64,000 bases of DNA from Xestospongia bergquistia (lineage: Eukaryota; Porifera; Demospongiae; Haplosclerida; Petrosiidae). Location: the NCBI GenBank assembly GCA_963965975.1, contig OZ014420.1, positions 5,544,001-5,608,000 on the forward strand. Direction: 5' to 3'. The notes under the pieces are model-generated. The model worked only from the letters and a program-made list of their open reading frames with translations. It had not been told where the DNA came from and did not search any database. Below, piece after piece: positions 1 through 58,500 of this stretch. Position numbers and translations under genes: made by a program. The number at the start of each line of letters is the position of its first letter. Within the stretch, counting starts at the first letter, position 1.

Positions 1-3000
1 TACTGAATTGTGGGATGAAGAAAGATGGTTTGGTAAAAGTGTTGTGATACTTCTATCCGGTTAGGTTGAGATAGTTGATTGTCAATATAATTATCACATC
101 GTATGTAGAGAAGTCTCATAGTTGTGTGTGACTTTAACATGTTACTAATAAGAGCTAGTCCTTGTTCATAGAACAATGGTATCATTATTTGCTCTATCTC
201 TTCAAACCTATAGTAACTAGACACACATAACTGATCTAGTTTGAAGTTCACTTTAAGTTCTGTGAGTCTGTTCTTATGAGAGATAACATTAAATAAAGTT
301 GTTATCTGTTCATAGTTAGTATCTGACAGTGGAATGGGTAAACTCAGCTCATGTAAACTGGTATTGTGTGAGAGACCAGTTGTTAGAAATGACAGGTAAG
401 TACTGGGAATAGTTCTAGTAGAATCATTAGGGTCTATCTCAAAATATTCTATTGCTTTGTTTATTGTTAACATGTCTTGTAAACTAGGACCCATACTGTC
501 ATATATGATATTGTCCCATATCACTACTTTCAAAGCCTTAACTGTAGTATTACTCTGTAGAATAGTAAATAGTTCAATAACACTCTCAGCTGTGTCTAGT
601 GATAGTTCAAGTTGTTGTAGATTAGGATGACATTGAAATAATAGAGGTAGTGTGACATGGTATTGTCTATGATCTTGTATAAGACAATGTAGTCCTTTGA
701 TATGTTGAGGAAATAATGATGTCTGTTCACAATCCAACCATCGTAATTTGCTCTCCAGAGCAATAAGTGGTGTGTTCACTATATCTGGTGATAAGACATT
801 AGGTATGTTCAGTTTAAGAGATTGTATTGTGTGATTGTCTCTTACTAGTTTATCATAAATCTCTTTGCTTGGAATATCTTTTCTCCATTTTAGATGATAA
901 CATTCAAGTGAAAATGTTTGAATTGATTTGTTTCTTGTTACTCCTTTAATCACACTGTAGACTGTCTTAGCATTATCACTAGAGAGATTCGGTATACCTC
1001 TAACATAACTTTCAATATCTAGTACTAGTTCTTGTAGTGTGCTGTTGATATATAAACTTTCCTCCAATTCAGATAAAATCCTCTTGTCTATCTGTATATA
1101 GTCTTCTTCATGTTCAAAATACATTATTTCAAAGTGTAATATCTTTAGATGTTGTAGTTTTATTAAGTACAGTAGTACAAGAGTAACATCAGATATATCC
1201 TGTGGTATACATGAGTGTATTGTAATATAACACTCTTGAAGATTGTGAGAGAATGATGATTGAAATAAATTTACTAATAACTTCATAGCCTTTTGGTCTT
1301 TATCTATAAACAACACTTCTATCTCTAGTCTTTTACAGTTAACATTGTTCATCAATGTATTAGTAAGGAGTTGTACTTTTTGATGTCCATAATGAAATCC
1401 CAGGTCCAAATAATTCCATGTTATGTTAGAGTTCTTTAAGAAAAATCCAAGACACAGTATATCAAATAGTGATGATCTTAGTCTAAGGAGGCAAAGTGAG
1501 TGGTTCTTTATAGATTGTGATAATGTTTGACATAATTTGATGTTCTGTGATTCATATAACAGTTGAAAGACAATGGCATCCCATTCATCAGAGAAAGGAG
1601 AAGAAATGTGTGGCCTAACAGTTTCTGAATTCTGTCTGAAATGAGAGTAGTAACACTTCTCAAATCCAAACAATGGTCTCCTTTTACATTGTAGGTCAAG
1701 TTCTTTGTTAAAATATTGTTGATGGCTTTCATCTTCAAGGTGAGTTAGACCTGCTACAAACATCAGACACATTCTAAAGTGATCATTATCAAAATGTTCT
1801 GAAAACACTTCCTCTGTCTTCTCATACTTAGCTATCCACCATGCTGCTAGAAATTCTTGGATACTCAGGTGAAGAAATTGATACCTCTCCTCAATACCTG
1901 CAATAAATGTTGTCATTAGTCCAAGATAACCTTCCTTCTCTGATTGACCAAGAGACTGACAGAGTTGAATTGAAGAAAATGTCATTTTTGGATTATTTTC
2001 TTTCAAACTGAGGTAAGCAAAGTGACAAATCTCTTTAAATGTTGTATCTAAGACTGATGGTAAATGATGAATGTTATATACTTGTACAGGTTCTATATTG
2101 TCAACTTTTTTTTCAACATGTCTTCTGATAGTTTGTAGGATAAAATTCTCATATAATTCTGTGAGTGTTGTTGGTAACTGTTCGTCTGACTGACGATAAA
2201 CTGAGATAACTATGGAACAGACTAGTGGTACATAACACAATGACTGGACATCACCTCGTACTTTAAGATCTTGAATAAGTTTCTCAGCTAGATGTGGTTC
2301 TTTTTCTAGTGTTCCTTTGATTACTTCCTTCATCTCCTCTTCTGAAAATCCTAACACTTCAACATGTCTGTTAACTGAAGATAATTTTAACAGTGAGTAA
2401 GAGGCATAGCTACGAGAGGTAACAATTACTGAACATTTGGCTAATATCTCTCTACGAATTATTCTAGCTGCTAGTGAGGATTGTCTGAGATCTGTACTAA
2501 GTTCATCCCAGCCATCGAAGATTATCAGTAGTCCTTGTCCATGTATTTTTTGCAGCCATTCAGTGATATTGGCAACTTCATTACAATCATATGTGTACTT
2601 AAGTAGTTGTTTTAATTCATTAGCTTGAGCCACCTTGTCATTTCTGAGAGGACAGTAAAGTACCAAGTTATATTGTCCATGTGTGAGTTCTCCTTTAGCC
2701 CACATATTTAACAGTTTACGACAGAGTGTTGTCTTACCAATACCAGGAGGACCATCAACTATTACTCTAAGAGACTGACCACTATCACATGGTTTAAGAA
2801 CATCCTGGATATCTATCTGTTTATCTTGAGTAACTTGAGGTATTTTATCAACTTGTCCTCTTAACATACACCATTGTTTCTGTAGTATTGTTTGAGGAGT
2901 GGCATGTCTGTCTTGTGTTTGTAGTAGTGCTAATCTTCCAAAGAAGTCTTGTCCAACTGGTGGTGGCCAGTCTGTAGGGACAATAGGTTGGTATTTGTAT

Positions 3001-4976
3001 TGGTCTATCATAATATCACAATATTGCTGAACGCCATGGTCTAATGAAGTAGTGGGTGGAGCATCATCAACAGTACATTCACCTTAACAAAAGAAATGTA
3101 CATTATGTAATAGTCGTTGAGTTTTTCAAGACATAAAGTCACTTAGGTGGAGCTGAGATGATTATGGTTCGTAATTTGATAGTTTATAGGTAAGTAAGTA
3201 CTATATTGTAACTTGTTTATAGAATCTTATAATTGATATGTAGATATTGTTATGTAAAACTCTTAGACATTATATGTTGTACATGGAATTTGTTAGGGAG
3301 TTATCTCACAGCATTAATAGATTAGAGTAACTCCACCCATTAGATTAACTCCACCCATTATAATTAGTTAGGTTTATCACCTAGGAGAGATATTAGATCT
3401 AGAGTCCACCCATAAGACTGTTTCAGTAACAACAAACTACATTGTACTTACTTGTAGCATTCACTTGTATCAGGTACTGGTATATTTCCTTAGCTAGGGC
3501 AATGTTCTCAACAAGTGGTCCCTTAACAACATCTATTATTGTCTTCCAACTGACAGGATTAGCTTGACTGTCCAACTCTATCCATTTCTGGAGTACATGA
3601 TCAAGTCTTGTTTGATTAGATATGTTAGACTCAGCCAAACCCTGAAGGAAATTGTAATCTACTCCAAGACCATTACCAATACTACGCCATGATGAATTAA
3701 TAGGAGCTAGTTGTTCTAGAAGATCCTTTTTTGAAGGTTTTTCAGCTAAAATGTTCAGTGAAAGGACATTTTAAAAGGTTGTTAAATTAATATATAATTA
3801 CATAATAAAGGAATGTCATTGAATTCCTCAGTGTATGTATCATTTCTTATTACTTGTTCCTGACTACCTGTATAATTAATATCTATAATTATAGTACATT
3901 TATTAATCATGTGATATATAGATATAATCACATGATAACTAGTACAGTATTTGTTATATAGAATAATAACATCAGATCTTTGGAGAGGGGATTTTAGGTA
4001 CCTTCATTCTTAATATCTAATTGTCTTCTCATTATAGTAGCTGTAATATGTTATATGATAATAGTGTATGGTATACATAAAATATTAACAGATGTTTAGC
4101 CACAATAGTGGAACTTTATGTACCTTCATTGAGTTCATTCTTAATATCTAGTTATCTTCTAGTTATAATTATTATATACCTTTATCAGGTGAAGTAGGAT
4201 GTTCAACTTCCTTACATCTAGTTCTTGGTTTAGGTACTGGTGGAGTAAGTGAGGAAGGATGTCCAACTTCCTTATGTCTTTTCCTTGGTTTAGGTACTGG
4301 TGGAGTAAGGGAGGAAGTATTTTGAACAAAATCAGTACAAAGTGGTTTACTAGAAGGGGGCGTGTCTAAATAATAGAAGTAATGACACGATGCATATTTA
4401 TTACATACTATACCTTTACACATAACCTCTTCTCTCATTATAACAGCTATATTCTTATCTCCACAGTTCTCAACAGCTGAGATGAGTTCTTCCCAAGAGG
4501 GATCAGTACTGTTTGTAATCCACCATTGTAAACCTTCCTCTAAAACAAAGTGGTAGTCTTGATCACTGCTGGCCATTGTCTTGAGTCTTCTCCTCTCCTC
4601 CAGTGATACACCTAGTAGACTAGTGAGTTCAGTCCATTTATCTTTAACAACAAAACCACTCTTAACAAGAAGTATTAGAGCATTACTTGATGTCAATTCT
4701 ATTGAAGTAAATGAGACATAGTCCCTGTATCAGTTATATGTATTAATGTTTACCTGTTTTAGGTCCAGGATTGAGTTCAATATCACCTGATAAAATGAGG
4801 AGAAGTAAGAGAAATAAAACTAGAGAGAAGGTCAGGTTACCACCACCCTCATCTCCAGACCATAGTGACTCCACCCATCCTGAGATATCAATAGTAGTTC
4901 CCTTTTTAGTAGTACATGGTATCTGATGACAATACCATAATCCAATACTAACTCTCCATTGTGTGGTATCTATCAT
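1..4976 (-). CDS. NLR-1: 2A leader, two Death domains, NACHT-LRR receptor (3' end outside window)
   Basis: Putative cytosolic pattern receptor of the NLR family. Exons on the minus strand: 4754-4976 (2A leader), 4180-4698 (Death domain plus proline-rich tail), 3452-3745 (second Death domain), 3082 to the window edge (NACHT and LRR). All junctions are GT-AG and phase 1, and the long exon stays in one frame from the ATGATAGAC at 3011 to base 1. The NACHT shows Walker A GPPGIGKTT and Walker B LLIIFDGWDEL, then the NLR motif FLHLSIQEFLAAWW and a long irregular LRR region. The leader starts at the ATG at 4976. The reading frame is open upstream to a GTG at 5006, but there is no ATG there. The SH3-ligand-like stretch TPPVPKPRKR appears twice near the end of the first Death exon. 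The last roughly 50 residues lie outside the window. Family call is sure; ligand unknown. Confidence 0.88.
4000..4165 (-). repeat. Two decayed copies of the 3' end of the Death-1 exon
   Basis: Two short stretches (about 4000-4045 and 4123-4165) repeat the coding end of the Death-1 exon: sense to MRRQLDIKNEG, ending in a GTACC donor-like site. They lie in the intron between the two Death exons of NLR-1, and the same remnants occur in NLR-7 near 51095-51135 and 51222-51265. They look like leftovers of exon duplication. I see no acceptor that would make them exons. Confidence 0.5.
4366..4413 (-). other. 48-nt in-frame putative mini-intron in the NLR-1 Death exon
   Basis: On the minus strand the segment starts GTATAG after AAAG and ends TTATTTAG before ACACGCC. 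It is 48 nt, a multiple of three, and has no stop, so both spliced and retained forms are readable. Splicing would join the Death domain to the proline-rich tail in frame. The same segment is seen in the Death exons of NLR-3 and NLR-7. Confidence 0.5.
4754..4976 (-). other. 2A-type ribosome-skipping / signal leader exon of NLR-1
   Basis: A 74-codon exon whose last part is a run of about 14 hydrophobic residues (FSLVLFLLLLLIL), then SGDIELNPGPKT. DxExNPG/P is the canonical 2A motif: the peptide bond between G71 and P72 is not formed in a share of translation events. The exon ends ACA G|GTAAAC (phase 1) and continues as GAA TTG ACA in the Death exon, so the 2A sits directly in front of the receptor. 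The same exon recurs at 12434-12653, 20429-20651, 28680-28902, 38045-38267, 51864-52086 and 60147-60369 with an unchanged 2A core. Confidence 0.85.
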
Positions 4977-8693: not shown

Positions 8694-11600
8694 TTACAAT
8701 ATGTCTATTATTGGTAGAGGTTTCAATGGTTGTTGTTGTATGTGTGTGTCAATTAATGTCTTCTCTTGTGATTTTAGAGTATCCCTTAGTACTGAGAAGC
8801 TAATGAAAGGCTTGATTCCAATGTATTGAAGTGTGTGGTGAAGAAAGATAGTTTGGTAAAAGTGTTGTGATACTTCTATCCAGTTAGGTTGAGATAGTTT
8901 ATGATTAATATAATCACAATGTATGTAGAGAAGTCTCATAGTTGTGTGTGACTTTAACATGTTAGTAATAAGATGTAGTACTTGTTCATAGAACAATGAT
9001 GTCATTATTTGCTCTATCTCTTCATATTTACAGTCATTAGACACACATGACTGATCTAGTATGAAGTTCACTTTAAGTTCTGTGAGTTTGTTCTTATGAG
9101 AGATAACATTAAATAAAGTTGTTATCTGTTCATAGTTAGTATCTGACAGTGGAATGGCTACACTCAACTCCTGTAGACTAGTATTGTGTGAGAGACCACT
9201 TGCTAGAAATGACAGGTAAGTACTGGGAATGGTATTAGTAAAATAAATATGGTCAATCTCAAAAAATTCTATTGTTTCGTTTAGTGTTAACATGTCTTGT
9301 AAACTAGGACCCATACTGTCATATATGGTATTGCCCCATATCACTACTTTCAAAGCCTTAACTGTAGTATTATTCTGTAGAATAGTAAATAGTTCAATAA
9401 CACTCTCAGCTGTGTTTAGTGATAGTTCAAGTTGTTGTAGATTAGGATGACATTGAAATAATAAAGGTAGTGTGACATGGTATTGTTTATGATCTAGTAT
9501 AAGACAATATAGTCCTTTGATATGTTGAGGAAATAATGATGTCTGTTCACAATCCAACCATCGTAATTTGCTCTCCAGAGCAGTAAGTGATGTGTTCACT
9601 ATATCCAGTGATAAGACATTAGGTATGTTCAGTTTAAGAGATTGTATTGTGTGATTGTCTCTTGCTAGTTTATCATAAATCTCTTTACTTGGTATATCTT
9701 CTCTCCATTCTAGATGATCACATTCAAGTGAAAATGTTTGAATTGATTTGTTTCTTGTTACTCCTTTAATCACACTGTAGACTGTATTAGTAATATCAGA
9801 TGGTAGTATATCACTATCAACACTTGTGATATTTAGTACTAGTTCTTGTAGTGTGCTGTTAATGTATAAACTTTCCTCCAATTCAGATAAAATCTTCTTG
9901 TCTATCTGTATATAGTCTTCCTCAGGTTTTTGTTGTCTCCAATATATTATTTTAAAGTGTAGTATTTTTAGATTTTGTAGTTTTATTAAGTGCAGTAGTA
10001 TAAGAGTAACATCAGAAGTATCAGTTGATGTATGTGAGTGTATTGTAATATAACACTCTAGAAGATTGTGAGAGAATGATGATTGAAATAAATTCACTAA
10101 TAACTTCATAGCCTTTTGGTCATTATCTTCAAACCACACCTCTATCTCTAGTCTTTTACACTCAAAATTGTCCATCAATGTAGTAAGGAGTTGTACTTTC
10201 TGTCCATATAGAGTTCCCAGGTCCAAATAATTCCATGTTATGTTAGAGCTGTTTAAGAAAAATCTAAGACATAGTATGTCAAATAGTGATCTTTGTCTAT
10301 GAAGGCAAAGTGAGTGGTTCATCATAGATTGTGATAATGTTTGACATAATTTGATGTTCTGTGATTCATATAACAATTGAAAGAGAATGCTATCCTGTTT
10401 ATCAGAGAGAGGATAAAGAAAGTGTGGCCTAACAGTTGCTGAATTCTGTCTGAAATAAGTGTAGTAACACTCCTCAAATCCAAACAATGGTCTCCTTTTA
10501 CATTGAAGATCAAGTTCTTTGTTAAAATATTGTTGATAGCTCTCATCTTCAAGGTGAGTTAAACCTGCTACAAACATCAGACACATTCTAAAGTGATCAT
10601 TATCAAAATGTTCTGAAAACACTTCCTCTGTCTTCTCATACTTAGCTATCCACCATGCTGCTAGAAATTCCTGGATACTCAGGTGAAGAAATTGATACCT
10701 CTCCTCAATACCTACAATAAATGTTGTCATTAGTCCAAGATAACCTTCCTTCTCTGATTGACCAAGAGACTGACAGAGTTGAATTGAAGAAAATGTCATT
10801 TTTGGATTATTTTCTTTTAAACTGAGGTAAGCAAAGTGACAGATCTCTTTAAATGTTGTATCTAAGACTGATGGTAAATGATGAAGGCAATATAATTGTA
10901 CAGGATTTGTATTGTCAATTCTCTTAATTTCAACATGTCTTCTGATAGTTTGTAGAATAAAATTCTCATACAATTCTGTGAGTGTTGTTGATAACTGTCC
11001 ATCTGATTGACGATAAACTGAGATAACTATGGAACAGACTAGTGGTACATAACATAATGACTGGACATCACCTCGTACTTCAAGATCTTGAATAAGTTTC
11101 TCAGCTAGATGCGGTTCTTTTTCTAGTGTTCCTTTGACTACTACCTCGATCTCCTCCTCTGAAAATCCCAACACTTCAACATGTCTGTTAAGTGAAGATA
11201 ATTTTAACAATGAGTAAGAGGCATAGCTACGAGAGGTAACAATTACTGAACATTTGGCTAATATCTCTCTACGAATTATTCTAGCTGCTAGTGAGAATTG
11301 TCTGAGATCTGTACTTAGTTCATCCCAACCATCAAAGATTATCAGTAATCCTTCTCCCTCTGTAGTTGTCATCCAATCAACAACTTTTAAGACTGTTGGA
11401 CTTTGGTAAACAGATAAATCTGTTAGTGTACTAGCTTGAGCCACCTTGTCATTTCTGAGAGGACAGTAAAGTACCAAGTTATATTGTCCATGTGTGAGTT
11501 CTCCTTTAGTCCACATATTTAATAGTTTACGACAGAGTGTTGTCTTACCAATACCAGGAGGACCATCAACTATTACTCTAAGAGACTGACCACTATCACA

Positions 11601-12653
11601 TGGTTCAAGAACATCCTGGATATCTATCTGTTTATCTTGAGTAACTTGAGGTATTTTATCAACTTGTCCTCTTAACATACACCATTGTTTCTGTAGTATT
11701 GTTTGAGGAGTGGCATGTCTGTCTTGTGTTTGTAGTAGTGCTAATCTTCCAAAGAAGTCTTGTCCAACTGGTGGTGGCCAGTCTGTAAGAACAATAGGTT
11801 GGTATTTGTATTGGTCTATCATAATATCACAATATCGCTGAACATCAGGGTCTAATGAAGTGGTGTGTGGAGTATCATCATCAGTACATTCACCTTAATG
11901 AAGTAAGGTACATAGTAAGGTAAATTAATACATTAATTAACTCACCTAATTGTTGTAATATAAAGGTAGTAATCTCTCTTAGTCTCTGATGTTGTTGGTT
12001 TCTTAATACATGACAAATGTTCACTAGATACTGGTATGGATCTCTATGTGCTTTTAACTGTCTCTGTAACACACCTACCAACTTACTAGATTTTACCAAA
12101 TCACTCTCTCCTTTTGATGTCAATATATCATTGTAAGTCTCAAATGATATGAGTCCTTTTGCATACAGTACATTAGTTACACTGGTAAGGATAGGAGTAA
12201 TGATACCACTAAGATCAGCAAAGTGAGTACGAAATAGTTCACTTGGAGTGAGTGAATCTATACAATATCACAGTACAATACAATATTACAGTACAATACA
12301 ATATTACAACAGTACAATACAATATTACAATAGTACATGACATAATAGTAAGTCTTAGAGCATTACTTGATGTCAATTCTATTGAAGTAAATAAGACATA
12401 GTCCCTGTATCAGTTATATGTTTTAATATTTACCTGTTTTAGGTCCAGGATTGAGTTCAATATCACCTGATAAAATGAGAAGTAAGAGAAACAAAACTAG
12501 AGAGAAGGTCAGGTTACCACCACCCTCATCTCTAGACCATAGTGACTCCACCCATCCTGAGATATCAGTAGTAGTTCTCTTTTTAGTAGTATGTGGTATC
12601 TGATGACAATACCATAATCCAATACTAACTCTCCATTGTGTGGTATCAATCAT
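8694..12653 (-). CDS. NLR-2: 2A leader, CARD-like domain, NACHT-LRR receptor
   Basis: Three exons: 12434-12653 (2A leader, one Leu shorter than the others), 11946-12257 (CARD-like, about 104 codons), 8694-11893 (NACHT-LRR). Total 3732 nt, 1243 residues, all junctions phase 1. The CARD-like exon carries LFRTHFADLS, LYAKGLISFETYNDIL and LREITTFILQQLG, a six-helix Death-fold pattern closest to CARD. The NACHT part has GPPGIGKTTL and LLIIFDGWDEL. In place of the usual NELKQLLKYTYD segment it carries a different stretch (STLTDLSVYQSPTVLK) just before Walker B, a local divergence unique in the array. The Death-1 exon is gone except for its acceptor and about 20 bases (12351-12378), so the 2A is spliced straight to the CARD-like exon. 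Intact by eye. Confidence 0.88.
12351..12378 (-). pseudogene. Remnant of a deleted Death-1 exon in NLR-2
   Basis: The acceptor TTCAATAG and the first codons (LTSSNALRL) of the Death-1 exon remain, then the sequence breaks into a short ACAATATT-type repeat (12265-12345). No donor follows, so it cannot be a working exon. An equivalent stump lies at about 28590-28623 in NLR-4. Confidence 0.6.
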
Positions 12654-16137: not shown

Positions 16138-19100
16138 TTATAATAAAAACAGGTCTATTATTGGTAGAGGTTTCAATGGTTGTTGTTGTATGTGTGTGTC
16201 AATTAATGTCTTCTCTTGTGATTTTAGAGTATCCCTTAGGTCTGAGAACTCAATCACTAACTTGATTCCAATGTACTGAATTGTGGGATGAAGAAAGACG
16301 GTTTGGTAAAAGTGTTGTGATACTTCTATCCAGTTAGGTTGAGATAGCTTATTGTCAATATAATCATCACATCGTATGTAGAGAAGTCTCATAGTTGTGT
16401 CTGACTTTAACATGTTAGTAATAAGAGGTAGTCCTTGTTCATAGAACTGCGCTATCTCTTCATAACTACAGTGACTGGGCATACATGTCTGATCTAGTAT
16501 GAAATTCACTTTAAGTTCTGTGAGTTTGTTCTTATGAGAGATAACTTTAAATAAAGTTGTTATCTGTTCATAGTTAGTATCTGACAGTGGAATGGGTACA
16601 CTCAACTCATGTAGACTGGTATTGTGTGAGAGACCACTTGTTAGAAATGATAGGTAAGTACTGGGAATGGTATTAGTAAAATCATTAGGGTCTATCTCAA
16701 AATATTCTATTGCTTTGTTCAGTGTTAACATGTCTTGTAAACTAGGACCCATACTGTCATAGATGGTACTAGGATTCATACTGTCATATATTATATTGCT
16801 CCTTATCACTACTTTCAAAGCCTTAACTGTAGTATTACTCTGTAGAATAGTAAATAGTTCAATAACACTCTCAGCTGTGTCTAGTGATAGTTTAAGTTGT
16901 TGTAGATTAGGATGACATTGAAATAATAGAGGTAGTGTGACATGGTATTGTTTATGATCTAGTATAAGACAATGTAGTCCTTTGATATGTTGAGGAAAAA
17001 ATGATGTCTGTTCACACTCCAACCATTGTAATTTGCTCTCCAAAGCAGTAAGTGATGTGTTCACTATATCCAGTGATAAAACATTAGGTATGTTCAGTTT
17101 AAGAGATTGTATTGTGCGATTTTCTCTTACTAGTTTATCATAAATCTCTTTGCTTAGTATATCTTCCGTCCATTCTAGATGATCACATTTGAGTGAAAAT
17201 GTTTGAATTGATTTGTTTCTTGTTACTCCTTTAATCACAGTGTTGACTGTATTAGTAATATCAATAGAGAGATTCGGTATACCACTAAAATAACTTCCAA
17301 TATCTAGTACTAGTTCTTGTAGTGTGCTGTTGATATATAAACTTTCCTCCAATTCAGATAAAATCCTCTTATCTATCTGTATATAGTTTTCTTCATCGTT
17401 TAGACGTTCCCAATATATTATTTTAAAGTGTAGTATCTTTAGATGTTGTAGCTTTATTAAGTGCAGTAGTACAAGAGTAACATCAGATATATCCTGTGGT
17501 GCACGTGAGTCGAATGTAATATAACACTCTTGAAGATTGTGATAGAATGATGACTGAAATAAAGTCACAAGTAATTTTATAGCTTTTTGGTCACTATCTT
17601 GAAGCCACACCCTTATCTCTAGTCTTTTACACTTAATATGGTTCATCAATGTATTAGTAAGGAGTTGTATTTTCTGTCTATATAGAGTTCCCAGGTCCAA
17701 ATAATTCCATGTTATGTTAGAGTTGTTTAAGAAAAATCCAAGACACAGTATATCATATAGTGATGATCTTAGTCTATAGAGGCAAAGTGAGTGGTTCTTC
17801 ATAGATTGTGATAATATTTGACATAATTTGATGTTCTGTGATTCATATAACAGTTGGAAGACAATGCCATCCCATTTATCAGAGAGAAGAGAAGAAATGT
17901 GTGGCCTAACAGTTGCTGAATTCTGTCTGAAATGAGAGTAGTAACACTTCTCAAATCCAAACAATGGTCTCCTTTTACATTGTAGGTCAAGTTCTTTGTT
18001 AAAATATTGTTGATAGCTTTCATCTTCAAGGTGAGTTAGACCTGCTACAAACATCAGACACATTCTAAAGTGATCATTATCAAAATGTTCTGAAAACACT
18101 TCCTCTGTCTTCTCATACTTAGCTATCCACCATGCTGCTAGAAATTCCTGGATACTCAGGTGAAGAAATTGATACCTCTCCTCAATACCTACAATAAATG
18201 TTGTCATTAGTCCAAGATAACCTTCCTTCTCTGATTGACCAAGAGACTGACAGAGTTGAATTGAAGAAAATGTCATTTTTGGATTGTTTTCTTTCAAACT
18301 GAGGTAAGCAAAGTGACAAATCTCTTTAAATGTTGTATCTAAGACTGATGGTAAATGATGAAGGCTATATACTTGTACAGGTTCTATATTGTCAACTCTT
18401 TTTCCAACATGTCTTCTGACAGTTTGTAGGATAAAATTCTCATACAATTCTGTGAGTGTTATTGGTAACTGTCCATCTGATTGACGATAAACTGAGATAA
18501 CTATGGAACAGACTAGTGGTACATAACACAATGACTGGACATCACCTCGTACTTTAAGATCGTGAATAAGTTTCTCAGCTAGATGTGGTTCTTTTTCTAG
18601 TGTTCCTTTGATTACTTCCTTGATCTCCTCTTCTGAAAATCCCAACACTTCAACATGTCTGTTAACAGAAGATAATTTTAACAGTGAGTATGAGGCATAG
18701 CTACGAGAGGTAACAATTACTGAACATTTGGCTAATATCTCTCTATGAATTATTCTAGCTGCTAGTGAGGGTTGTCTGAGATCTGTACTTAATTCATCCC
18801 AGCCATCAAAGATTATCAGTAGTCCTTGTCCATGTATTTTTTGCAGCCATTCAGTGACAGTAGTAACTTCATTACAATCATATGTGTACTTAAGTAGTTG
18901 TTTTAATTCATTAGCTTGAGCTACCTCATGATTTCTGAGAGGACAGTAAAGTACCAACTTATATTTTCCATGTGTGAGTTCTCCTTTAGCCCACCTATTT
19001 AATAGTTTACGACAGAGTGTTGTCTTACCAATACCAGGAGGACCATCAACTATTACTCTAAGAGACTGACCACTATCACATGGTTTAAGAACATCCTGGA

Positions 19101-20651
19101 TATCTATCTGTTTGTCTTGAGTAACTTGAGGTATTTTATCAACTTGTCCTCTTAACATACACCATTGTTTCTGTAGTATTGTTTGAGGAGTAGAATGTCT
19201 GTCTTGTGTTTGTAGTAGTGCTAATCTTCCAAAGAAGTCTTGTCCAACTGGTGGTGGCCAGTCTGTAGGGACAATAGGTTGGTATTTGTATTGGTCTGTT
19301 ATAATATCACAATATCGCTGAACATCAGGGTCTAATGAAGTGGTGAGTGGAGCATCATCATCAGTACATTCGCCTTAATGAAGTAAGGTACATAGTAAGG
19401 TAAATTAATACATTAATTAACTCACCTAATTGTTGTAATATAAAGGTAGTAATCTCTCTTAGTCTCTGATGTTGTTGGTTACTTAATACATGACATATAT
19501 TCACTAGATACTGGTATGGATCTCTATGTGTTTTTAACTGTCTCTGTAACACACCTACCAACTTACTAGATTTTACAAAGTCACTATCTCCTTTTGTTGT
19601 CAATATATCATTGTAAGTCTCAAATGATATCAGTCCTTTAGCATACAGTACATTAGTTACACTGGTAAGAGTAGGAGTAATAGCGTCACTAAGATCAGCA
19701 AAGTGAGTACGAAATAAATCATTTGGAGTGAGTGTTGCTATAATGAAGAAAATCAAAATTAAAATACTCTTTTAAATCATCCTATATATCTATGATTATT
19801 GTGTCTGGTCTAATATATATAACAATACTAACTGCATTAATATACCTTTAGCTGTTGAAGTAAGTAAGGAAGGATGTTCAACTTCCTTACATTTAGTTCT
19901 TGGTTTTGGTATTGGTGGAGAAAGTGAGGAAGGATGTCCAACTTCCTTATGTCTTTTCCTTGGTTTAGGTACTGGTGGAGTAAGGGAGGAAGTATCTTGA
20001 ACAAAATCAGTACAAATTGGTTTACTAGGAGTGGGTGTATCTATACAATAGAAGTAATGAGACAATGCATATTTATTACATACTATACCTTCACTCTTAA
20101 CCTCTTCTCTCATTATAACAGCTATATTCTTATCTCCACAGTCCTCGACAGCTAAGATGAGTTCTTCCCAAGAGGGGTCAGTACTGTTTATAATCCACCA
20201 TTGTAAACCTTCCTCTAAAGCAAAGTGGTAGTCTTGATCACTGCTGGCCATTGTCTTAAGTCTTCTCCTCTCCTCCAGTGATACACCTAGTAGACTAGTG
20301 AGTTGAGTCCATTTATCTTTAACAACAAAACCACTCTTAACAAGAAGTCTTAGAGCATTACTTGCTGTCAATTCTATTAAAGTAAATAAGACATAGTCCC
20401 TGTATCAGTTATATGTTTTAATATTTACCTGTTTTAGGTCCAGGATTGAGTTCAATATCACCTGATAAAATGAGGAGAAGTAAGAAAAATAAAACTAGAG
20501 AGAAGGTCAGGTTACCACCACCCTCATCTCCAGACCATAGTGACTCCACCCATCCTGAGATATAAGTAGTAGTTCCCTTTTTAGTAGTATGTGGTATCTG
20601 ATGACAATACCATAATCCAATATTAACTCTCCATTGTGTGGTATCTATCAT
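16138..20651 (-). CDS. NLR-3: 2A leader, Death domain, CARD-like domain, NACHT-LRR receptor
   Basis: Four exons: 20429-20651 (2A leader), 19846-20373 (Death domain and proline-rich tail), 19426-19737 (CARD-like), 16138-19373 (NACHT-LRR). Total 4299 nt, 1432 residues, phase 1 at every junction. It is the only complete copy that joins Death and CARD-like modules. The usual MIDQYKY start of the long exon reads TDQYKY here, which does not matter because the exon is entered by splicing. Walker A GPPGIGKTTL and Walker B LLIIFDGWDEL are intact. The Death exon holds the 48-nt mini-intron and PPVPKPRKR plus PPIPKPRTK. An extra 13-codon direct duplication (YDSMNPS / YDSMGPS) lies in the LRR part. Its 5' end lies behind STRAD-A on the same strand instead of facing a PTB gene. 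Confidence 0.88.
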
Positions 20652-24954: not shown

Positions 24955-27900
24955 TCAGTTATAATAACACAGGTCTATTATTGGTAGAGGTTTCAATGGT
25001 TGTTGTTGTATGTGTGTGTCAATTAATGTCTTCTCTTGTGATTTTAGAGTATCCCTTAGGACTGATAACTCATTCACTAACTTGTTTCCAATGTACTGAA
25101 TTGTGGGATGAAGAAAGACGGTTTGGCAAAAGTGTTGTGATACTTCTATCCAGTTAGGTTGAGATAGTTGATTGTCAATGTTTTCACATTGTATGTAGAG
25201 AAGTCTCATAGTTGTGTGTGATTGTAACATGTTAGTAAGAAGATGTAGTCCTTGTTCATAGAACAATGATGTCATTATTTGTTTTATCTCTTTATAACTA
25301 CAGTAACTAGACACGCATAACTGATCTAGTGTGAAGTCCACTTTAAGTTCTGTGAGTTTGTTCTTATGAGAGATAACATTAAATAAAGTTGTTATCTGTT
25401 CATAGTTAGTATCTGACAGTGGAATGGGTACACTCAGCTCATGTAGACTGGCATTGTGTGAGAGACCAGTTGTTAGAAATGACAGGTAAGTACTGGGAAT
25501 AGTTCTAGTAAAATCATTAGGGTTTATCTCAAAATATTCTATTGCTTTGTTCAGTGTTAACATGTCTTGTAAACTAGGACCCATACTGTCATATATGGTC
25601 TTGTCCCATATCACTACTTTCAAAGCCTTAAATGTAGTATTACTCTGTAGAATAGTAAATAGTTCAATAACACTCTCAGCTGTGTTTAGTGATAGTTCAA
25701 GTTGTTGTAGATTAGGATGACATTGAAATAATAGAGGTAGTGTGACATGGTATTGTTTATGATCTAGTATAAGACAATGTAGTCCTTTGATATGTTGAGG
25801 AAATAATGATGTCTGTTCATAATACAACCATTGTAACTTGCTCTCCAAAGCAGTAAATGATGTGTTCACTATATCCAGTGATAAGACATTAGGTATGTTC
25901 AGTTTAAGAGATTGTATTGTGTGATTGTCTCTTACTAGTTTATCATAAATCTCTTTGCTTAGTATATCTTCTGTCCATTCTAGATGATCACATTCAAGTG
26001 AAAGTGTTTGAATTGATTTGTTTCTTGTTACTCCTTTAATCACACTGTAGAGTGTATTAGCAATATTAGTAGAAAAAGATGGTATAATAAGAACACTTAT
26101 TTCAATATCTAGTACTAGTTCTTGTAGTGTGCTATTAATATATAAACTTTCCTCCAATTCAGATAAAATCTTCTTGTCTAGCTGTATATACTCTTCTTCA
26201 GATTTTAGATCTACATGGTATGTTATTTTAAAGTGTAGTATCTTTAGATATTGTAGTTTTATTAAGTGCAGTAGTACAAGAGTAACATCAGATACATCCT
26301 GTGGTATACAAGAGTATAATGTAACATAACACTCTTGAAGATTGTGAGACAATGATGATTGAAATAAAGTCACTAATAACTTAATAGCCTTTTGGTCATT
26401 ATCTATAAATGACACCCTTATCTCTAGTCCTTTACAGTTAACATTGTTCATCAATGTATTAATAAGGAGTTGTACTTGTTGTCCAATTAGAAATCCCAGG
26501 TCCAAGTAATTCCATGTTATGTTAGAGTTCTTTAAGAAAAATCCAAGACACAGTATGTCAAATAGTGATGGTCTTAGTCTATGGAGGCAAAGTGAGTGGT
26601 TCTTTATAGATTGTGATAATGTTTGACATAATTTGATGTTCTGTGATTCGTATAACAGTTGGAAGACAATGCCATCCCATTCATCAGAGAGAAGAGAAGA
26701 AATGTGTGGCCTAACAGTTGTTGAATTCTGATTGAAATGGGAGTAGTAACACTTCTCAAATCCAGACAATGGTCTCCTTTTACATTGTAGGTCAAGTTCT
26801 TTGTTAAAATATTGTTGATAGCTCTCATCTTCAAGTTGAGTTAGACCTGCTATAAACATCAGACACATTCTAAAGTGATCATTATCAAAATGTTCTGAAA
26901 ACACTTCCTCTGTCTTCTTATAGTTAGCTATCCACCATGCTGCTAGAAATTCCTGGATACTCAGGTGAAGAAATTGATACCTCTCCTCAATACCTACAAT
27001 AAATGTTGTCATTAGTCCAAGATAACCTTCCTTCTCTGATTGACCAAGAGACTGACAGAGTTGAATTGAAGAAAATGTCATTTTTGGATTATTTTCTTTC
27101 AAACTGAGGTAAGCAAAGTGACAAATCTCTTTAAATGTTTTATCTAAGACTGATGGTAAATGATGAATGTTATGTACTTGTAAAGGTTTTTTGTCAACGT
27201 TTTTTTCAACATGTCTTCTGATAGTTTGTAGGATAAAATTCTCATACAATTCTGTGAGTGTTGTTGGTAACTGTCCTTTTGACCAATGATAAACTGAGAT
27301 AACTATGGAACAGACTAGTGGTACATAACACAATGACTGGACATCACTTCGTACTTCAAGATCTTGAATAAGTTTCTCAGCTAGTTGTAGTTGTTTTTCT
27401 AGTGTTCCTTTGACTACTATCTTGATCTCCTTCTCTGAAAATCCCAACACTTCAACATGTCTGTTAACTGAAGATAATTTTAACAGTGAGTAAGAGGCAT
27501 AGCTACGAGAAGTAACAATTACTGAACATTTGGCTAATATCTCTCTACGAATTATTCTAGCTGCTAGTGAGGATTGTCTGAGATCTATACTTAATTCATC
27601 CCAGCCATCAAAGATTATCAGTAGTCCTTGTCCATGTATTTTTTGCAACCATTCAGTGATATTGGCAACTTCATTACAATCATATGTGTACTTAAGTAGT
27701 TGTTTTAATTCATTAGCTTGAGCCACCTCATGATTTCTGAGAGGACAGTATAGTACCAAGTTATATTGTTCATGTGTGAGTTCTCCTTTAGCCCACATAT
27801 TTAATAGTTTACGACAGAGTGTTGTCTTACCAATACCAGGGGGACCATCAACAATTACTCTAAGAGACTGACCACTATCACATGGTTTAAGAATATCCTG

Positions 27901-28902
27901 GATATCTATCTGTTTATCTTGAGTAACTTGAGGTATTTTATCAACTTGTCCTCTTAAAATACACCATTGTTTCTGTTGTATTGTTTGAGGAGTGGCATGT
28001 CTGTCTTGTGTTTGTAGTAGTGCTAATCTTCCAAAAAAGTCTTGTCCAACTGGTGGTGGCCAGTCTGTAGGGACAATAGGTTGGTATTTGTACTGGTCTA
28101 TCATAATATCACAATATTGCTGGACATCAGGATCTAATGAATTGGTAGGTGGATCATCATTATCAGTACATTCACCTTAATGAAGTAAGACACATTAAAG
28201 TAAAGTAAATTAATACATTAATTAACTCACCTAATTGTTGTAATATAAAGGTAGTAATCTCTCTTAGTCTCTGATGTTGTTGGTTTCTTAATACATGACA
28301 TATATTCACTAGATACTGGTATGGATCTCTATGTGCTTTTAACTGTCTCTGTAACACACCTGCCAACTTACTAGATTTTACCAAATCACTCTCTCCTTTT
28401 GTTGTCAATATGTCATTGTAAGTATCAAATGATATCAGTCCTTTTGCATATAGTACATTAGTTACACTGGTAAGGATAGGAGTAATGATATCACTAAGAT
28501 CAGCAAAGTGAGTACGAAATAGTTCACTTGGAGTGAGTGAATCTATACAATATTACAATACAATACAATATTACAATAGTACATGACATAATAGTAAGTC
28601 TTATAACATTACTTGATGTCAACTATATTGAAGTAAATAAGACATAGTCCCTGTATCAGTTATATGTTTTAATATTTACCAGTTTTAGGTCCAGGATTGA
28701 GTTCAATATCACCTGATAAAATGAGGAGAAGTAAGAGAAATAAAACTAGAGAGAAGGTCAGGTTACCACCACCTTCATCTCCTGACCATAGTGACTCCAC
28801 CCATCCTGAGATATCAGTACTAGTTCTCTTTTTAGTAGTACATGGTATCTGATGACAATACCATAATCCAATACTAACTCTCCATTGTGTGGTATCAATC
28901 AT
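24955..28902 (-). CDS. NLR-4: 2A leader, CARD-like domain, NACHT-LRR receptor
   Basis: Exons 28680-28902 (2A leader), 28231-28542 (CARD-like), 24955-28175 (NACHT-LRR). Total 3756 nt, 1251 residues, phases close. Same domain order as NLR-2, including the loss of the Death-1 exon (stump at about 28590-28623). NACHT motifs GPPGIGKTTL and LLIIFDGWDEL are intact. The LRR half differs from the sister genes mostly in one belt (TYHVDLKSEEEYIQ against IYWRQQKPEEDYIQ in NLR-2). It faces PTB-4, so this pair is the only unit in the window where both the NLR and a four-RRM PTB look whole. Confidence 0.88.
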
Positions 28903-37003: not shown

Positions 37004-38267
37004 TTGTAGCATTCACTTGTATCAGGTACTGGTATATATCCTTAGCTAGGGCAATGTTCTTAATAAGTGGTCCGTTAACAACATCTATTATTGTCTTCCA
37101 ACTGACAGGATTAGCTTGACTATCCAACTCTATCCATTTCTGGAGTACATGATCAAGTCTTGTTTGATTAGATATGTTAGACTCAGCCAAGCCCTGAAGG
37201 TCATTATATTCCACTCCAAGACCATTACCAATACTACGCCATGATGTATTAATAGGAGCTAGTTGTTCTAGAACATCCTTTTTGAAGGCTTTTCAACTAA
37301 AATATTCAGAGAAAGGACATTTTAAAAGGTTGTTAAATTAATATAACTCACATAATATAGGAAAATCATTGAATTCCTCAGTATATGTATCATTTCCTAC
37401 TACTTGCTCCTGACTACCTGTATAATTAATATCTATAATTATAGTACATTTATTAATCATGTGATATGTAGATACAATCACATGATAACTAGTACACAAT
37501 TTTGACATGTTAAGTTATATTATTTTCAACATCAGACCTTTAGTTATTGAAATAATTGAAGAATGATCTTCAGTCTCTTTGGGTCTTTTAAATACTGGAG
37601 TAGATAAGGGAGAATCTTCAATATCTTTAGATCTTTTCATCAGATGACATACTACAGTAAATATGAAATGAATATGTGTATTAAATGAATAAATATACCT
37701 TCATTCTTAATATCTAGTTGTCTTCTCATTTTAACAGCTATATCCTTATCTCCACAGTCCTCAATAGCTGAGATAAGTTCTTCCCAAGAGGAGTCAGTAC
37801 TGTTTGTAATCCACCATTGTAAACCTTCCTCTAAAGCAAAGTGGTAGTCTTGATCACTGCTGACCATTGTCTTGAGTCTTCTCCTCTCCTCCAGTGATAC
37901 ACCTAGTAGACTAGTGAGTTGAGTCCATTTATCTTTAACAACAAAACCACTCTTAACAAGAAGTCTTAGAGCATTACTTGATGTTAATTCTATTGAAGTA
38001 AATGAGACATAGTCCCTGTATCAGTTATATGTTTTAATATTTACCTGTTTTAGGTCCAGGATTGAGTTCAATATCACCTGATAAAATGAGGAGAAGTAAG
38101 AGAAATAAAACTAGAGAGAAGGTTAGGTTACCACCACCCTCATCTCTTGACCATAGTGACTCCACCCATCCTGAGATATCAGTAGTAGTTCCCTTTTTAG
38201 TAGTACATGGTATCTGATGACAATACCATAATCCAATATTAACTCTCCATTGTGTAGTATCGATCAT
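37004..38267 (-). pseudogene. NLR-5 5' part: 2A leader, Death-1, linker, frameshifted second Death
   Basis: Exons 38045-38267 (2A leader, intact), 37699-37989 (Death-1, short form of 97 codons), 37538-37651 (KRSKDIED linker), 37004-37296 (second Death, copy b). The last is 293 nt instead of 294: one T is lost from a run (CCTTTTT where all other copies have six T), so the domain goes out of frame near its start. With no NACHT exon downstream the locus cannot make a normal receptor. A short 2A-Death product is still possible. Confidence 0.75.
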
Positions 38268-45766: not shown

Positions 45767-46126
45767 TACATGAGGACTTATTTTCACAGATAGCTAGTGC
45801 TACTCAACCACAAAAATTAAGATATATTACCATGTTAAACAATGCCCCTTTAATTAATAGTTGATCTTGCTGTCATTTCAATTCTAACAATTCTCAAGAT
45901 TCAGAATAATGACATAACATTAAGTTAATTAACATATCTTTCTATTTAATTCTGTAAGTTGTTTTTGTCACAATCACAGAAGATCACAAGTAACTAGTAT
46001 AAGTAACAGTCCATTAATAATTTGTGATTATCTTACTCTAAGACTCAATGTTAACAAACTTACATTAACTGATTTCTTACTCCTGTATTCAGTATTTATC
46101 TCATAAAATAGTAATTATTTGTATAG
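45767..46126. other. Partial PTB downstream region
   Basis: Matches the end of 33817-34744. Non-coding. Its left border is the recombination joint with NLR-6. Confidence 0.4.
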
Positions 46127-49900: not shown

Positions 49901-52086
49901 CATGGTTCAAGAACATCCTGGATATCTATCTGTTTATCTTGAGTAACTTGAGGTATTTTATCAACTTGTCCTCTTAACATACACCATTGTTTCTGTAGTA
50001 TTGTTTGAGGAGTGGCATGTCTGTCTTGTGTTTGTAGTAGTGCTAATCTTCCAAAGAAGTCTTGTCCAACTGGTGGTGGCCAGTCTGTAGGGACAATAGG
50101 TTGGTATTTGTATTGGTCTATCATAATGTCACAATATTGCTGAAAGCCATGGTCTAATGAAGTGGTGGGTGGAGCATCATCAACAGTACATTCACCTTAA
50201 CAAAAGAAATGTACATTATGTAATAGTTGTTGAGTTTTTGAAGACATAAAGTCACTTAGGTGGAGCTGAGATGATTATGGTTTGTAATTTGATAGTTTAT
50301 AGGTAAGTAAGTACTATATTGTAACTTCTTTATAGAATCTTATAATTGATATGTAGGTATTGTTATATAAAACTCTTAGACATTATATGTTTTACATGGA
50401 ATTTGTTAGGGAGTTATCTCACAGCATTAATAGATTAGAGTAACTCCACCCATTATAATTAGTTAGGTTTATCACCTAGGAGAGATATTAGATCTAGAGT
50501 CCACTCATAAGACTGTTGCAGTAACAACAAACTACATTGTACTTACTTGTAGCATTCACTTGTATCAGGTACTGGTATATTTCCTTAGCTAGGGTAATGT
50601 TCTTAATAAGTGGTCCGTTAACAACATCTACTATTGTCTTCCAACTGACAGGATAATCTTGACTGTCCAACTCTATCCATTTCTGGAGTACATGATCAAG
50701 TCTTGTTTGATTAGACATGTTAGACTCAGCCAAACCCTGAAGGAAATTATAATCTACTCCAAGACCATTACCAATACTACGCCATGATGAATTAATAGGA
50801 GCTAGTTGTTCTAGAACATCCTTTTTTGAAGGTTTTTCAGCTAAAATATTCAGAGAAAGGACATTTTAAAAGGTTGTTAAATTAATATATAATTACATAA
50901 TAAAAGAATGTCATTGAATTCCTCAGTGTATTCATCATTTCTTACTACTTGTTCCTGACTACCTGTATAATTAATATCTATAATTATAGTACATTTATTA
51001 ATCATGTGATATATAGATATAGTCACATGATAACTAGTACAGTATTTGTTATATAGAATAATAACATCAGATCTTTGGAGAGGGGATTTTATGTACCTTC
51101 ATTCTTAATATCTAATTGTCTTTTCATTATAGTAGGTATATTACATAATATGTTATATGATAATAGTGTATGGTATACATAAAATAATAACAGATGTTTA
51201 GTCACAATAGTAGAACTTATGTACCTTCATTGAGTTCATTCTTAATATCTAGTTATCTTCTCATTTTAATTATTATATACCTTTATTGGGTGAAGTAAGT
51301 GAGGAAGGATGTTCAACCTCCTTACATCTAGTTCTTGGTTTTGGTATTGGTGGAGTAAGTGAGGAAGGATGTCCAACTTCCTTATGTCTTTTCCTTGGTT
51401 TAGGTACTGGTGGAGTAAGGGAGGAAGTATCTTGAACAAAATCAGTACAAAGTGGTTTACTAGAAGGGGGCGTGTCTAAATAATAGAAGTAATGACACGA
51501 TGCATATTTATTACATACTGTACCTTTACACATAACCTCTTCTCTCATTATAACAGCTATATTTTTATCTCCACAGTCCTCAACAGCTGAGATGAGTTCT
51601 TCCCAAGAGGGGTCAGTACTGTTTGTAATCCACCATTGTAAACCTTCCTCTAAACCAAAGTGGTAGTCTTGATCACTGCTGGCCATTGTCTTGAGTCTTC
51701 TCCTCTCCTCCAGTGATACACCTAGTAGACTAGTGAGTTGAGTCCATTTATCTTTAACAACAAAACCACTCTTAACAAGAAGTCTTAGAGCATTACTTGA
51801 TGTCAATTCTATTAAAGTAAATAAGACATAGTCCCTGTATCAGTTATATGTTTTAATATTTACCTGTTTTAGGTCCAGGATTGAGTTCAATATCACCTGA
51901 TAAAATGAGGAGAAGTAAGAGAAATAAAACTAGAGAGAAGGTCAGGTTATCACCACCCTCATCTCCTGACCATAGTGACTCCATCCATCCTGAGATATCA
52001 GTAGTAGTTCCCTTTTTAGTAGTACATGGTATCTGATGACAATACCATAATCCAATATTAACTCTCCATTGAGTAGTATCGATCAT
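46996..52086 (-). pseudogene. NLR-7: full-length layout, NACHT broken
   Basis: Exons 51864-52086 (2A leader), 51281-51808 (Death-1 with proline-rich tail and mini-intron) and 50547-50840 (second Death) are intact. The NACHT-LRR exon 46996-50195 is not. A 29-bp deletion near 49855 removes the GKTTLCRKLL part of Walker A and shifts the frame. Stops replace Tyr in ASYSLL (about 49538) and Arg in EVRSD (about 49409). A 7-bp deletion near 48860 shifts the frame again. The LRR part after that is open for 608 codons. Only a short 2A-Death-Death product could be made. Confidence 0.85.
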
Positions 52087-55512: not shown

Positions 55513-58500
55513 TTAATACAGGTCTATTATTGGTAGAGGTTTCAATGGTTGTTGTTGTATGTGTGTGTCAATTAATGTCTTCTCTTGTGATTTTAGAGTA
55601 TCCCTTAGGTCTGATAACCCAATCATTAACTTGATTCCAATGTACTGAATTGTGGGATGATGAAAGACGGTTTGGCAAAAGTGTTGTGATACTTCTATCC
55701 AGTTAGGTTGAGATGGTTGAGATAATTGATTGTCAATATAATCATCACATCGTATGTAGAGAAGTCTCATAGTTGTGTCTGACTTTAACATGTTAGTAAT
55801 AAGAGGTAGTCCTTGTTCATAGAACAATGGTAGTTGTCTCTCTTCTCTACAGTAAGTGGACATACATGACTGATCTAGTTTGAAATTCACTTTAAGTTCT
55901 GTAAGTTTGTTCTTATGAGAGATAACATTAAATAAAGTTGTTATCTGTTCATAGTTAGTATCTGACAGTGGAATGGGTACACTCAACTCATGTAGACTGG
56001 TATTGTGTGAGAGACCAGTTGTTAAAAATGACAGGTAAGTACTGGAAATGATACTAGTTAAGATGTCAGTGTCAATCTCAAAATGTTCTATTGTTTTGTT
56101 TAGTGTTAACATGTCTTGTAAACTAGGACCCATACTGTCATATATGGTCTCGTTCCATATCTCTACTTTCAAAGCCTTAACTGTAGTATTATTCTGTAGA
56201 ATAGTAAATGGTTCAATAACACTCTCAGCTTTGTATAGTGATAGTTGAAGTTGTTGTAGATTAGGATGACATTGAAATAATAGAGGTAGTGTGACATGGT
56301 ATTGTTTATGATTTAGTATAAGACAATGTAGTCCTTTGATATGTTGAGGAAATAATGATGTCTGTTCACAATCCAACCATTGTAAATTGCTCTCCAGAGC
56401 AATAAGTGTTGTGTTAACTATATCTGGTGATAAGACATTAGGTATGTTCAGTTTAAGAGATTGTATTGTGTGATTGTCTCTTACTAGTTTATCATAAATC
56501 TCTTTGCTTGGTATATCTTCTTCTGTCCAATCTAGATTATAACATTCGAGTGAAAATGTTTGAATTGATTTATTTCTTGTTACTCCTTTAATCACACTGT
56601 TGACTGTATTAGCAATATCACTAGAGAAATTCAGTATACCTCTAACAACACTTCTAATATCTAGTACTAGTTCTTGTAGTGTGCTGTTGATATATAAACT
56701 TTCCTCTAATTCAGATAAAATCCTCTTGTCTATCTGTATATAGTCTTCTTCATCTTTTAGATGTTCCCAATATATTATTTTAAAGTGTAGTATCTTTAGA
56801 TGTTGTAGTTTTATTAAGTGCAGTAGTACAAGAGTAAGATCAGATATATCCTGTGGTCTATATGAGTCTAATTTAATATAACACTCTTGAAGATTGTGAG
56901 AGAATGATGACTGAAATAAAGTCATTAATAACTTCATAGCCTTTTGGTCATTATCTTCAAACCGCACCTCTATCTCTAGTCGTTTACAGTTAACATTGTT
57001 CATCAATGTATTAGTAAGGAGTTGTACTTTCTGTCCATTTAGAGTTCCCAGGTCCAAGTAATTCCATGTTATGTTAGAGTTGTTTAAGAAAAATCCAAGA
57101 CACAGTATATCAAATAATGATGGTCTTAGTCTATGAAGGCAAAGTGAGTGGTTCTTCATTGATTGTGATAATATTTGACATAATTTGGTGTTCTGTGATT
57201 CATATAACAGTTGGAAGACAATGCCATCCCATTCATCAGAGAGAAGAGAAGAAATGTGTGGCCTAACCATTGTTGAATTCTGTCTGAAATGAGAGTAGTA
57301 ACACTTCTCAAATCCAAACAATGGTCTCCTTTTACATTGTAGGTCAAGTTCTTTGTTAAAATATTGTTGATAGCTTTCATCTTCAAGGTGATTTAGACCT
57401 GCTACAAACATCAGACACATTCTAAAGTGATCATTATCAAAATGTTCTGAAAACACTTCCACTGTCTTCTTATACTTAGCTACTTCCTCTCTCTTCTTAT
57501 ACTTAGCTATCCACCATGCTGCTAGAAATTCCTGGATACTCAGGTGAAGAAATTGATACCTCTCATCAATACCTACAATAAATGTTGTCATTAGTCCAAG
57601 ATAACCTTCCTTCTCTGATTGATCAAGAGACCGACAGAGTTGAATTGAAGAAAATGTCATTTTTGGATTATTTTCTTTCAAACTGAGGTAAGCAAAGTGA
57701 CAAATCTCTTTAAATGTTGTATCTAAGACTGATGGTAAATGATGAATGTTACGTACTTGTAAAGGTTTTTTGTAAACGTTTTTCTCAACATGTCTTCTGA
57801 TAGTTTGTAGGATAAAATTCTCATATAATTCTGTGAGTGTTGTTGGTAACTGTCCATCTGACTGACGATAAACTAAGATAACTATGGAACAGACTAGTGG
57901 TACATAACACAATGACTGGACATCATCTCGTACTTCAAGATCTTGAATAAGTTTCTCAGCTAGATGAGGTTCTTTTTCTAGTGTTCCTTTGATTACTACC
58001 TTGATCTCCTTCTCTGAAAATCCCAACACTTCAACATGTCTGTTAACAGAAGATAATTTTAACAGTGAGTAGGAGGCATAGCTACGAGAGGTAACAATTA
58101 CTGAACATTTGGCTAATATCTCTCTACGAATTATTCTAGCTGCTAGTGAGGATTGTCTGAGATCTGTACTTAGTTCATCCCAACCATCAAAGATTATCAG
58201 TAATCCTTTTCCATGTATTTTTTGCAGCCATTCAGTGACAGTAGTAACTTCATTACAATCATATGTGTACTTAAGAAGTTGTTTTAATTCATTAGCTTGA
58301 GCCACCTTGTCATTTCTGAGAGGACAGTAAAGTACCAAGTTATATTGTTCATGTGTGAGTTCTCCTTTAGCCCACATATTTAACAGTTTACGACAGAGTG
58401 TTGTCTTACCAATACCAGGAGGACCATCAACTATTACTCTAAGAGACTGACCACTATCACATGGTTTAAGAACATCCTGGATATCTATCTGTTTATCTTG

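Follow-up and report, generated by a model that had tools for sequence, protein, structure and literature searches.

StopGo (2A) sequences are described as being used only rarely in cellular genes (PMC12846837). In the closest described system, that of the sea urchin, 85 of 241 NLRs carry 2A-like sequences (Roulston et al. 2016, PMC4981915), and the same report records 2A sequences in non-LTR retrotransposons. Among RNA viruses, LLLLSG-like contexts form one StopGo class, and the related motif 6 is active in vitro (PMC12846837).

A comparable arrangement is found in the sponge DNA analysed here (the window, a stretch of 64 kb). A six-frame scan returned exactly seven D-x-E-x-NPGP motifs, all reading DIELNPGP and all on the minus strand, with Asp codons at 4784, 12464, 20459, 28710, 38075, 51894 and 60177; the motif count was zero in 100 first-order Markov simulations of the window. 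All seven motifs belong to leader exons that close with a hydrophobic run plus SGDIELNPGPKT, end in phase 1 and are followed by a GT donor:

4754..4976, minus strand: leader exon 1, ATG to phase-1 donor; core DIELNPGP at 4784
12434..12653, minus strand: leader exon 2; 2A core at 12464
20429..20651, minus strand: leader exon 3; 2A core at 20459
28680..28902, minus strand: leader exon 4; 2A core at 28710
38045..38267, minus strand: leader exon 5; 2A core at 38075; NACHT missing downstream
51864..52086, minus strand: leader exon 6; 2A core at 51894; NACHT exon downstream broken
60147..60369, minus strand: leader exon 7; 2A core at 60177

An earlier, sequence-only reading of this DNA had proposed seven such exons, each ending in a hydrophobic run and a canonical 2A core and comparable to the leaders of sea-urchin NLRs. 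The scan recovers all seven, the core is canonical in every case, its Leu-rich upstream context is like that of a class reported active in vitro (PMC12846837), and the parallel with the sea urchin holds (PMC4981915).

Exon boundaries, phases and partners of the window leaders were assigned from frame and splice-site logic, and the joins from leader to Death exon are predictions on that footing. An in-frame Death exon begins 52-55 bases after the leaders at 4754, 20429, 38045, 51864 and 60147 (5/7). A usable Death exon was not found downstream of the other two leaders, 12434 and 28680; their in-frame partner is a CARD-like exon, 176 and 137 bases on, respectively (2/7). The phase-1 layout of the earlier reading, from leader to Death or CARD-like exon, is thus reproduced by the same logic. 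For unit 1, a Death exon placed 29 bases after the leader was discarded as out of frame; an intron of 55 bases keeps the frame. The unit at 20429 served as the model gene: leader, Death, CARD-like and NACHT plus LRR-like exons, with all internal junctions in phase 1 and a predicted product of 1351 residues. The exons downstream of the leaders are as follows:

20089..20373, minus strand: Death exon, phase 1-1, model gene; Pfam Death E 0.0015, below cut-off; six helices
4414..4698, minus strand: Death exon after leader 1; 3′ end taken from model gene
37705..37989, minus strand: Death exon after leader 5; 3′ end taken from model gene
51524..51808, minus strand: Death exon after leader 6; 3′ end taken from model gene
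59810..60094, minus strand: Death exon after leader 7; 3′ end taken from model gene
19426..19737, minus strand: CARD-like exon, phase 1-1, model gene; six helices, weak CARD fold matches
11946..12257, minus strand: CARD-like exon directly after leader 2; 3′ end taken from model gene
28231..28542, minus strand: CARD-like exon directly after leader 4; 3′ end taken from model gene
16138..19373, minus strand: NACHT plus LRR-like last exon of model gene
8694..11894, minus strand: NACHT plus LRR-like open frame, unit 2
24955..28176, minus strand: NACHT plus LRR-like open frame, unit 4
55513..58755, minus strand: NACHT plus LRR-like open frame, unit 7
2304..2768, minus strand: NACHT match of unit 1; the frame runs past the window edge

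The predicted fold of the Death exon comprises six helices (pLDDT 88.6) and finds its best PDB matches in FADD death domains; FADD is the top match by both fold and profile, at weak E-values of 0.034 and 0.014. Fold and profile point to a Death domain, with the Pfam score below the cut-off. The CARD-like exon likewise folds into six predicted helices (pLDDT 94.2), with CARD chains among its top matches (best E 0.84), but it has no Pfam match, and its six-row profile found no CARD in the PDB at E ≤ 1; we are less sure of this assignment than of the Death assignment.

The NACHT domain is clear in three window units (Pfam PF05729, E 2.7e-24 to 5.6e-23), and NLRP proteins, with NLRP3 close to the top, lead the list of PDB relatives. 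The C-terminal half of the NACHT frames is repeat-like, and LRR-like by eye only; no Pfam LRR was found at E ≤ 0.01 in the full frames of units 2 and 3. We therefore speak of NACHT receptors and use ‘NLR’ loosely.

The sequence-only reading had extended its proposal to each receptor in the array, and this was too broad. Five of the seven units have an open NACHT frame (1066-1080 aa). In the unit at 51864 the NACHT exon is in pieces and contains a stop. The 8 kb downstream of the leader at 38045 hold no NACHT match from the list of 95, and there are LRR-like end pieces only. As judged from their sequence, these two units are not intact receptors. Between leader 38045 and the LRR-like pieces (44895-48870) lies a Ty3/gypsy-type retroelement in pieces (38853-42289, plus strand), with matches to RT, RNase H and integrase in several frames and to protease below the cut-off.

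We consider it very probable that the leader is a StopGo (2A) module that is released while a cytosolic receptor continues, and that it heads several gene families. We infer splicing, skipping, the efficiency of skipping and the fate of both products, which would run as follows. At the Gly/Pro step the ribosome would release a leader of ∼73 residues ending in NPG and then continue; the receptor would begin Pro-Lys-Thr-Death and remain in the cytosol. In a minority of chains the skip would fail, and the retained hydrophobic run would direct the product to membranes or the secretory path. Efficient skipping is to be expected from the resemblance of LLILSG plus a D-type core to the LLLLSG-like class. 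Judged by tunnel length, the run would not yet have left the ribosome when the Gly codon occupies the P site, so that the decision to skip would precede emergence of the run. In the window the genes headed by the module would be NACHT receptors; elsewhere in the genome they would be ankyrin, GBP, Roc-COR and ZU5-like genes.

The genome around the window comprises 146 Mb in 21 contigs and contains 161 sites matching D(V/I)ExNPGP, as against none for the reversed pattern. A leader similarity search gave 150 scored matches among 187 candidates, 129 of the 150 being full-length and stop-free. For contigs C1-C8 the list of 2A sites is complete, and all joins between leaders and 2A sites refer to these contigs. 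There, the exact core is present in 64 of 74 leader matches and in 56 of the 58 that are full-length and stop-free; eight of the ten matches that do not have it are fragments or contain stops.

Full-length leaders are followed by a Death-type exon in 90 of 129 cases (reversed control, 0/129), by a NACHT match in 44 and by both in 34; the gap from leader to Death exon is 41-66 bases in most plus-strand cases. Viewed from the receptor side, a same-strand leader precedes 48 of the 95 NACHT matches listed (opposite-strand control, 0/95), the other 47 having none. Of the two Death types, the first has a leader upstream in 79 of 101 matches and the second in 27 of the 150 listed. Leaders are not obligatory for Death or NACHT genes. 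Conversely, 27 of the 129 leaders have no partner among those tallied (Death-type, NACHT, GBP and ankyrin).

This coupling bears on the possibility that the leaders are remnants of 2A-bearing retroelements lying outside receptor mRNAs. Some 2A motifs do occur apart from leaders: 24 of the 88 listed on C1-C8 fall outside leader matches, and 2A cores are also present in two retroelement-type frames with PHD fingers (L061 and L063). Against this, the coupling to Death and NACHT is on the same strand with controls of zero, the Death gap is short and regular in most plus-strand cases, a donor site follows the core, and purifying selection is distributed by block (see below). Strand coupling and block-wise selection led us to reject remnants as the main reading, and we hold it to be highly improbable.

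The two frames, L061 (G000:C4:8603900-8608500) and L063 (C1:10942300-10945300), each carry a 2A core between a Leu-rich run and a PHD-type finger, and presumably resemble the starts of non-LTR elements. Among the 2A sites listed, the DNA of the L061 core is repeated without change at eight or more other places on C4 (8.61-8.91 Mb), where there is also a near-identical copy, and at one place on C1. A different kind of outlier is L062 (G000:C1:27371300-27372500), a divergent leader (MIGLIQWRARIGGW ... TCGDIELNPGPRTG) that is not among the 150 leader matches and lies ∼1.5 kb upstream of a NACHT match; a core like that of L062 is found at C1:27475124, ∼1.4 kb before a NACHT match at 27476556. Finally, 25 leader matches, full or partial, occupy C4 from 2.5 to 3.8 Mb, with no NACHT, GBP or ankyrin among the matches listed there.

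The sequence-only reading had presented the leader as a feature of NLR receptors. It does head NACHT units, but it is not specific to them: 50 of the 150 leader matches have a same-strand NACHT match in the next 8 kb, NLR specificity was accordingly rejected, and several non-NACHT families share the leader. At least 19 of the 129 full-length leaders have an ankyrin partner downstream and at least five a GBP partner, both being lower bounds (the ankyrin tally draws on 36 rows of the 249 ankyrin matches, 150 of 6319 candidates having been scored; the GBP tally on 16 of 27 rows). Individual loci show the arrangement directly. A leader plus Death-type exon stands before an ankyrin-repeat frame at L032, a GBP GTPase at L053 and a Roc-COR unit at L059 (all by Pfam), and before a ZU5-like domain, with Pfam below the cut-off, at L055. 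At L031 and L048 ankyrin genome matches lie behind the leader and Death-type exon; the frames of L056 and L058 resemble, by eye, the start of ankyrin-repeat frames; and at L051, in the C4 stretch named above, a Death-like exon (by eye) is followed by a large frame with a P-loop-like motif, also by eye, for which no Pfam family was found at E ≤ 0.01. On C3, 11 GBP matches (ten of them strong) lie between 1.51 and 1.60 Mb, and five full-length leaders there precede a GBP.

The donor G|GT directly follows the PKT codons in 48 of 51 leaders. The leader makes up a first exon by itself and ends at a phase-1 donor, so that it could be placed before any gene with a phase-1 exon next in line. From its sequence we regard it as a shared first exon that fits any phase-1 partner. 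A tree of the 51 short leader rows, in which the labels of L001-L050 were assigned by contig, groups ankyrin-labelled leaders together; 3 of its 47 inner branches are well supported, and it gives no direction of exchange between families.

These 51 distinct leaders were extracted by the core pattern, with L060, L061, L063 and L064 dropped since they have a 2A core but no N-block. They align throughout as a conserved N-block (MIDxxQWRxxIGLWY), a variable linker, a hydrophobic run and the 2A core, the typical ending behind the run being LLILSG-D(V/I)ELNPGP; LLILSG precedes the core in 45 of 51, and the length to PKT is 66-78 residues. By hydropathy, the run exceeds a transmembrane-like Kyte-Doolittle threshold (1.6 over 19 residues) in 51 of 51 leaders; it begins at residue 42-56, and the 15 residues that precede it are net negative in 47.

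Within the window, the DNA of the 2A core is identical in all seven leaders; the sequence-only reading had taken an invariant core in an otherwise variable leader as suggesting selection. The copies are 96.2% identical (0.962) across the leader versus 96.5% (0.965) across the adjacent intron. The copies are recent duplicates, and the invariance of their core is attributable to that recent duplication; since leader and intron are equally alike, selection is not readable from the window copies, and the argument from those copies alone was rejected. The 51 genome-wide leaders give a different answer. In 25 disjoint nearest pairs, pN/pS is 0.212 for the N-block (CI 0.158-0.279), 0.924 for the linker, 0.314 for the run and 0.101 for the core (95% CI 0.032-0.210); 20 pairs drawn from leader-similarity loci give 0.232, 0.997, 0.302 and 0.047, respectively. 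Retention of the core is partly selected for by the extraction and by a leader query that contained it, and the zero nonsynonymous change in NPGP across the 51 leaders holds by construction. Synonymous sites of the N-block vary. We conclude from these comparisons that the 2A core and N-block are, as far as codon statistics can indicate, under purifying selection and the linker is near-neutral. The claim of a selected core, and the codon-level comparison bearing on it, thus stand for the genome-wide leaders (pN/pS 0.05-0.10) and fail for the window copies alone. Motif, architecture, phases, genome-wide repetition and block-wise selection are all legible in the DNA itself.

A further reading is that the leader is mainly a signal sequence, and that partial skipping splits the receptor between the cytosol and the secretory path or membrane; the sequence-only reading had likewise proposed that each receptor is made in two locations from one mRNA. 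Dual targeting has been demonstrated for one sea-urchin NLR leader (PMC4981915), membrane-bound sponge NLRs have been suggested (PMC12909245), and the run, sufficient by hydropathy in every leader, is conserved (pN/pS ∼0.3). Its position is less easily accommodated, as a run that starts at residue 42-56 behind a net-negative stretch (47/51) is unlike a classical n-region. Leu-rich stretches, moreover, belong to the 2A tunnel context as well (PMC12846837), and they also precede the 2A cores in the PHD-finger retroelement-type frames L061 and L063. By analogy, dual targeting of the receptors here is possible; as the main function of the leader we entertain it, while thinking it more apt to be wrong than right. 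Given the position of the run, the negative charge before it and the class of the upstream context, two locations are no more likely than a receptor confined to the cytosol and a leader peptide set free.

The N-block raises another question, that of the released peptide itself. Its pattern occurs at 111 sites in the genome versus none for the reversed control, and at 39 of the 45 sites on C1-C8 a 2A core follows 165-210 nt downstream, always in frame; six of the 45 do not have the core. Use of the N-block separately from 2A was considered and set aside: the one site read, L065 (G000:C1:4337900-4338500), is a relic of ∼13 residues that breaks off after MIDICQWRVSIGL, with no 2A core in the stretch read. 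Skipping would yield a peptide of 63-75 residues with the run ∼9 residues from its C terminus, which by inference is a tail-anchor-like geometry. The leader peptide could then be an independent product, namely a microprotein of tail-anchor-like build with a cytosolic N-block, made 1:1 with each receptor. Constraint on the N-block in the face of varying synonymous sites, and its close association with an in-frame core, are consistent with this; so is its placement in 99 of 119 public relatives (see below), where it ends ∼47 or more residues from the skip site. A distance of 47 residues lies beyond the ribosome tunnel. The N-block could instead serve the unskipped form or translation initiation, and we put the microprotein forward tentatively, as a candidate that falls short of being probable. 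Conservation of the N-block nonetheless suggests that the released peptide has a role of its own: explained by neither skipping nor targeting, it is the strongest hint that the peptide matters.

Public sequences contain many relatives of the leader. Queried alone, it returned 119 public proteins, 106 with the exact core and two being the window's own; in 99 of the 119, those fitting both patterns, a start Met is present 62-120 residues ahead of the final Pro. Of 7987 candidates scored with a 22-row leader profile, 869 public proteins reached E ≤ 0.001, the best 120 being listed, and the leader is therefore not confined to the copies read in the window and genome. In the 153 relatives that were read, the exact core is present in 140 (missing in 13) and the N-block pattern in 146; exactly one of the 51 leaders is contained in each of 14 relatives. 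With a full-length spliced query, no relative was found that covers the first 75 residues, the database being presumed to predict genes unspliced. Three public single frames (P0120, P0133 and P0134) run from leader into CARD-like or Death sequence with no stop; they appear to read through the short intron and show adjacency rather than splicing.

If the StopGo module operates as we propose, a genome with 129 full-length leaders across several defence-type families, with selection acting on separate blocks, would be a natural test bed for the question of why cells use StopGo, and a large class of short co-produced peptides is predicted. Annotation of receptor location would also change, as a receptor could no longer be called membrane-bound because of a predicted transmembrane segment at its N terminus if skipping removes that segment; a skipped leader may offer an alternative reading of membrane-bound sponge NLR predictions (PMC12909245). 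A bolder version, which we judge unlikely but worth stating, is that in this animal lineage a single exchangeable StopGo exon has turned many Death-domain defence genes, differing in architecture, into two-protein genes, each making a cytosolic receptor and a 1:1 tail-anchor-like micropeptide with a functional N-block (a membrane tag, or a partner or brake of the receptor), and that sponge NLRs called ‘membrane-bound’ from predicted transmembrane segments could in part be cytosolic receptors with skipped leaders.

Among the publications listed in a literature search, none dealt with sponge 2A leaders, and prior notice is possible. Compared with the LLLLSG-like class of RNA viruses (PMC12846837), the leaders share an L-rich hexapeptide ending in SG before a D core (p12 = D; compared by eye), but they belong to cellular genes and occur in many copies. 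L061 and L063 are like the 2A of non-LTR retrotransposons, with a core behind a Leu-rich run near the frame start and a PHD-type finger downstream; unlike the leaders, they have no N-block, and the frame runs from core to finger without a phase-1 donor. The nearest likeness is to SpNLR2A: there, too, Death-NACHT receptors carry a 2A core at their N terminus or close to it, with signal-like hydrophobic character (PMC4981915). Activity is demonstrated for a SpNLR2A leader and predicted for the leaders here. By description, the leaders differ from SpNLR2A in having a separately conserved N-block, a near-neutral linker and their own phase-1 exon, in being common to ankyrin, GBP, Roc-COR and ZU5-like genes, and in copy number. 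The kind is known from the sea urchin; what differs is the N-block with its linker, the phase-1 exon, the several unrelated architectures that the leader heads, and the number of copies.
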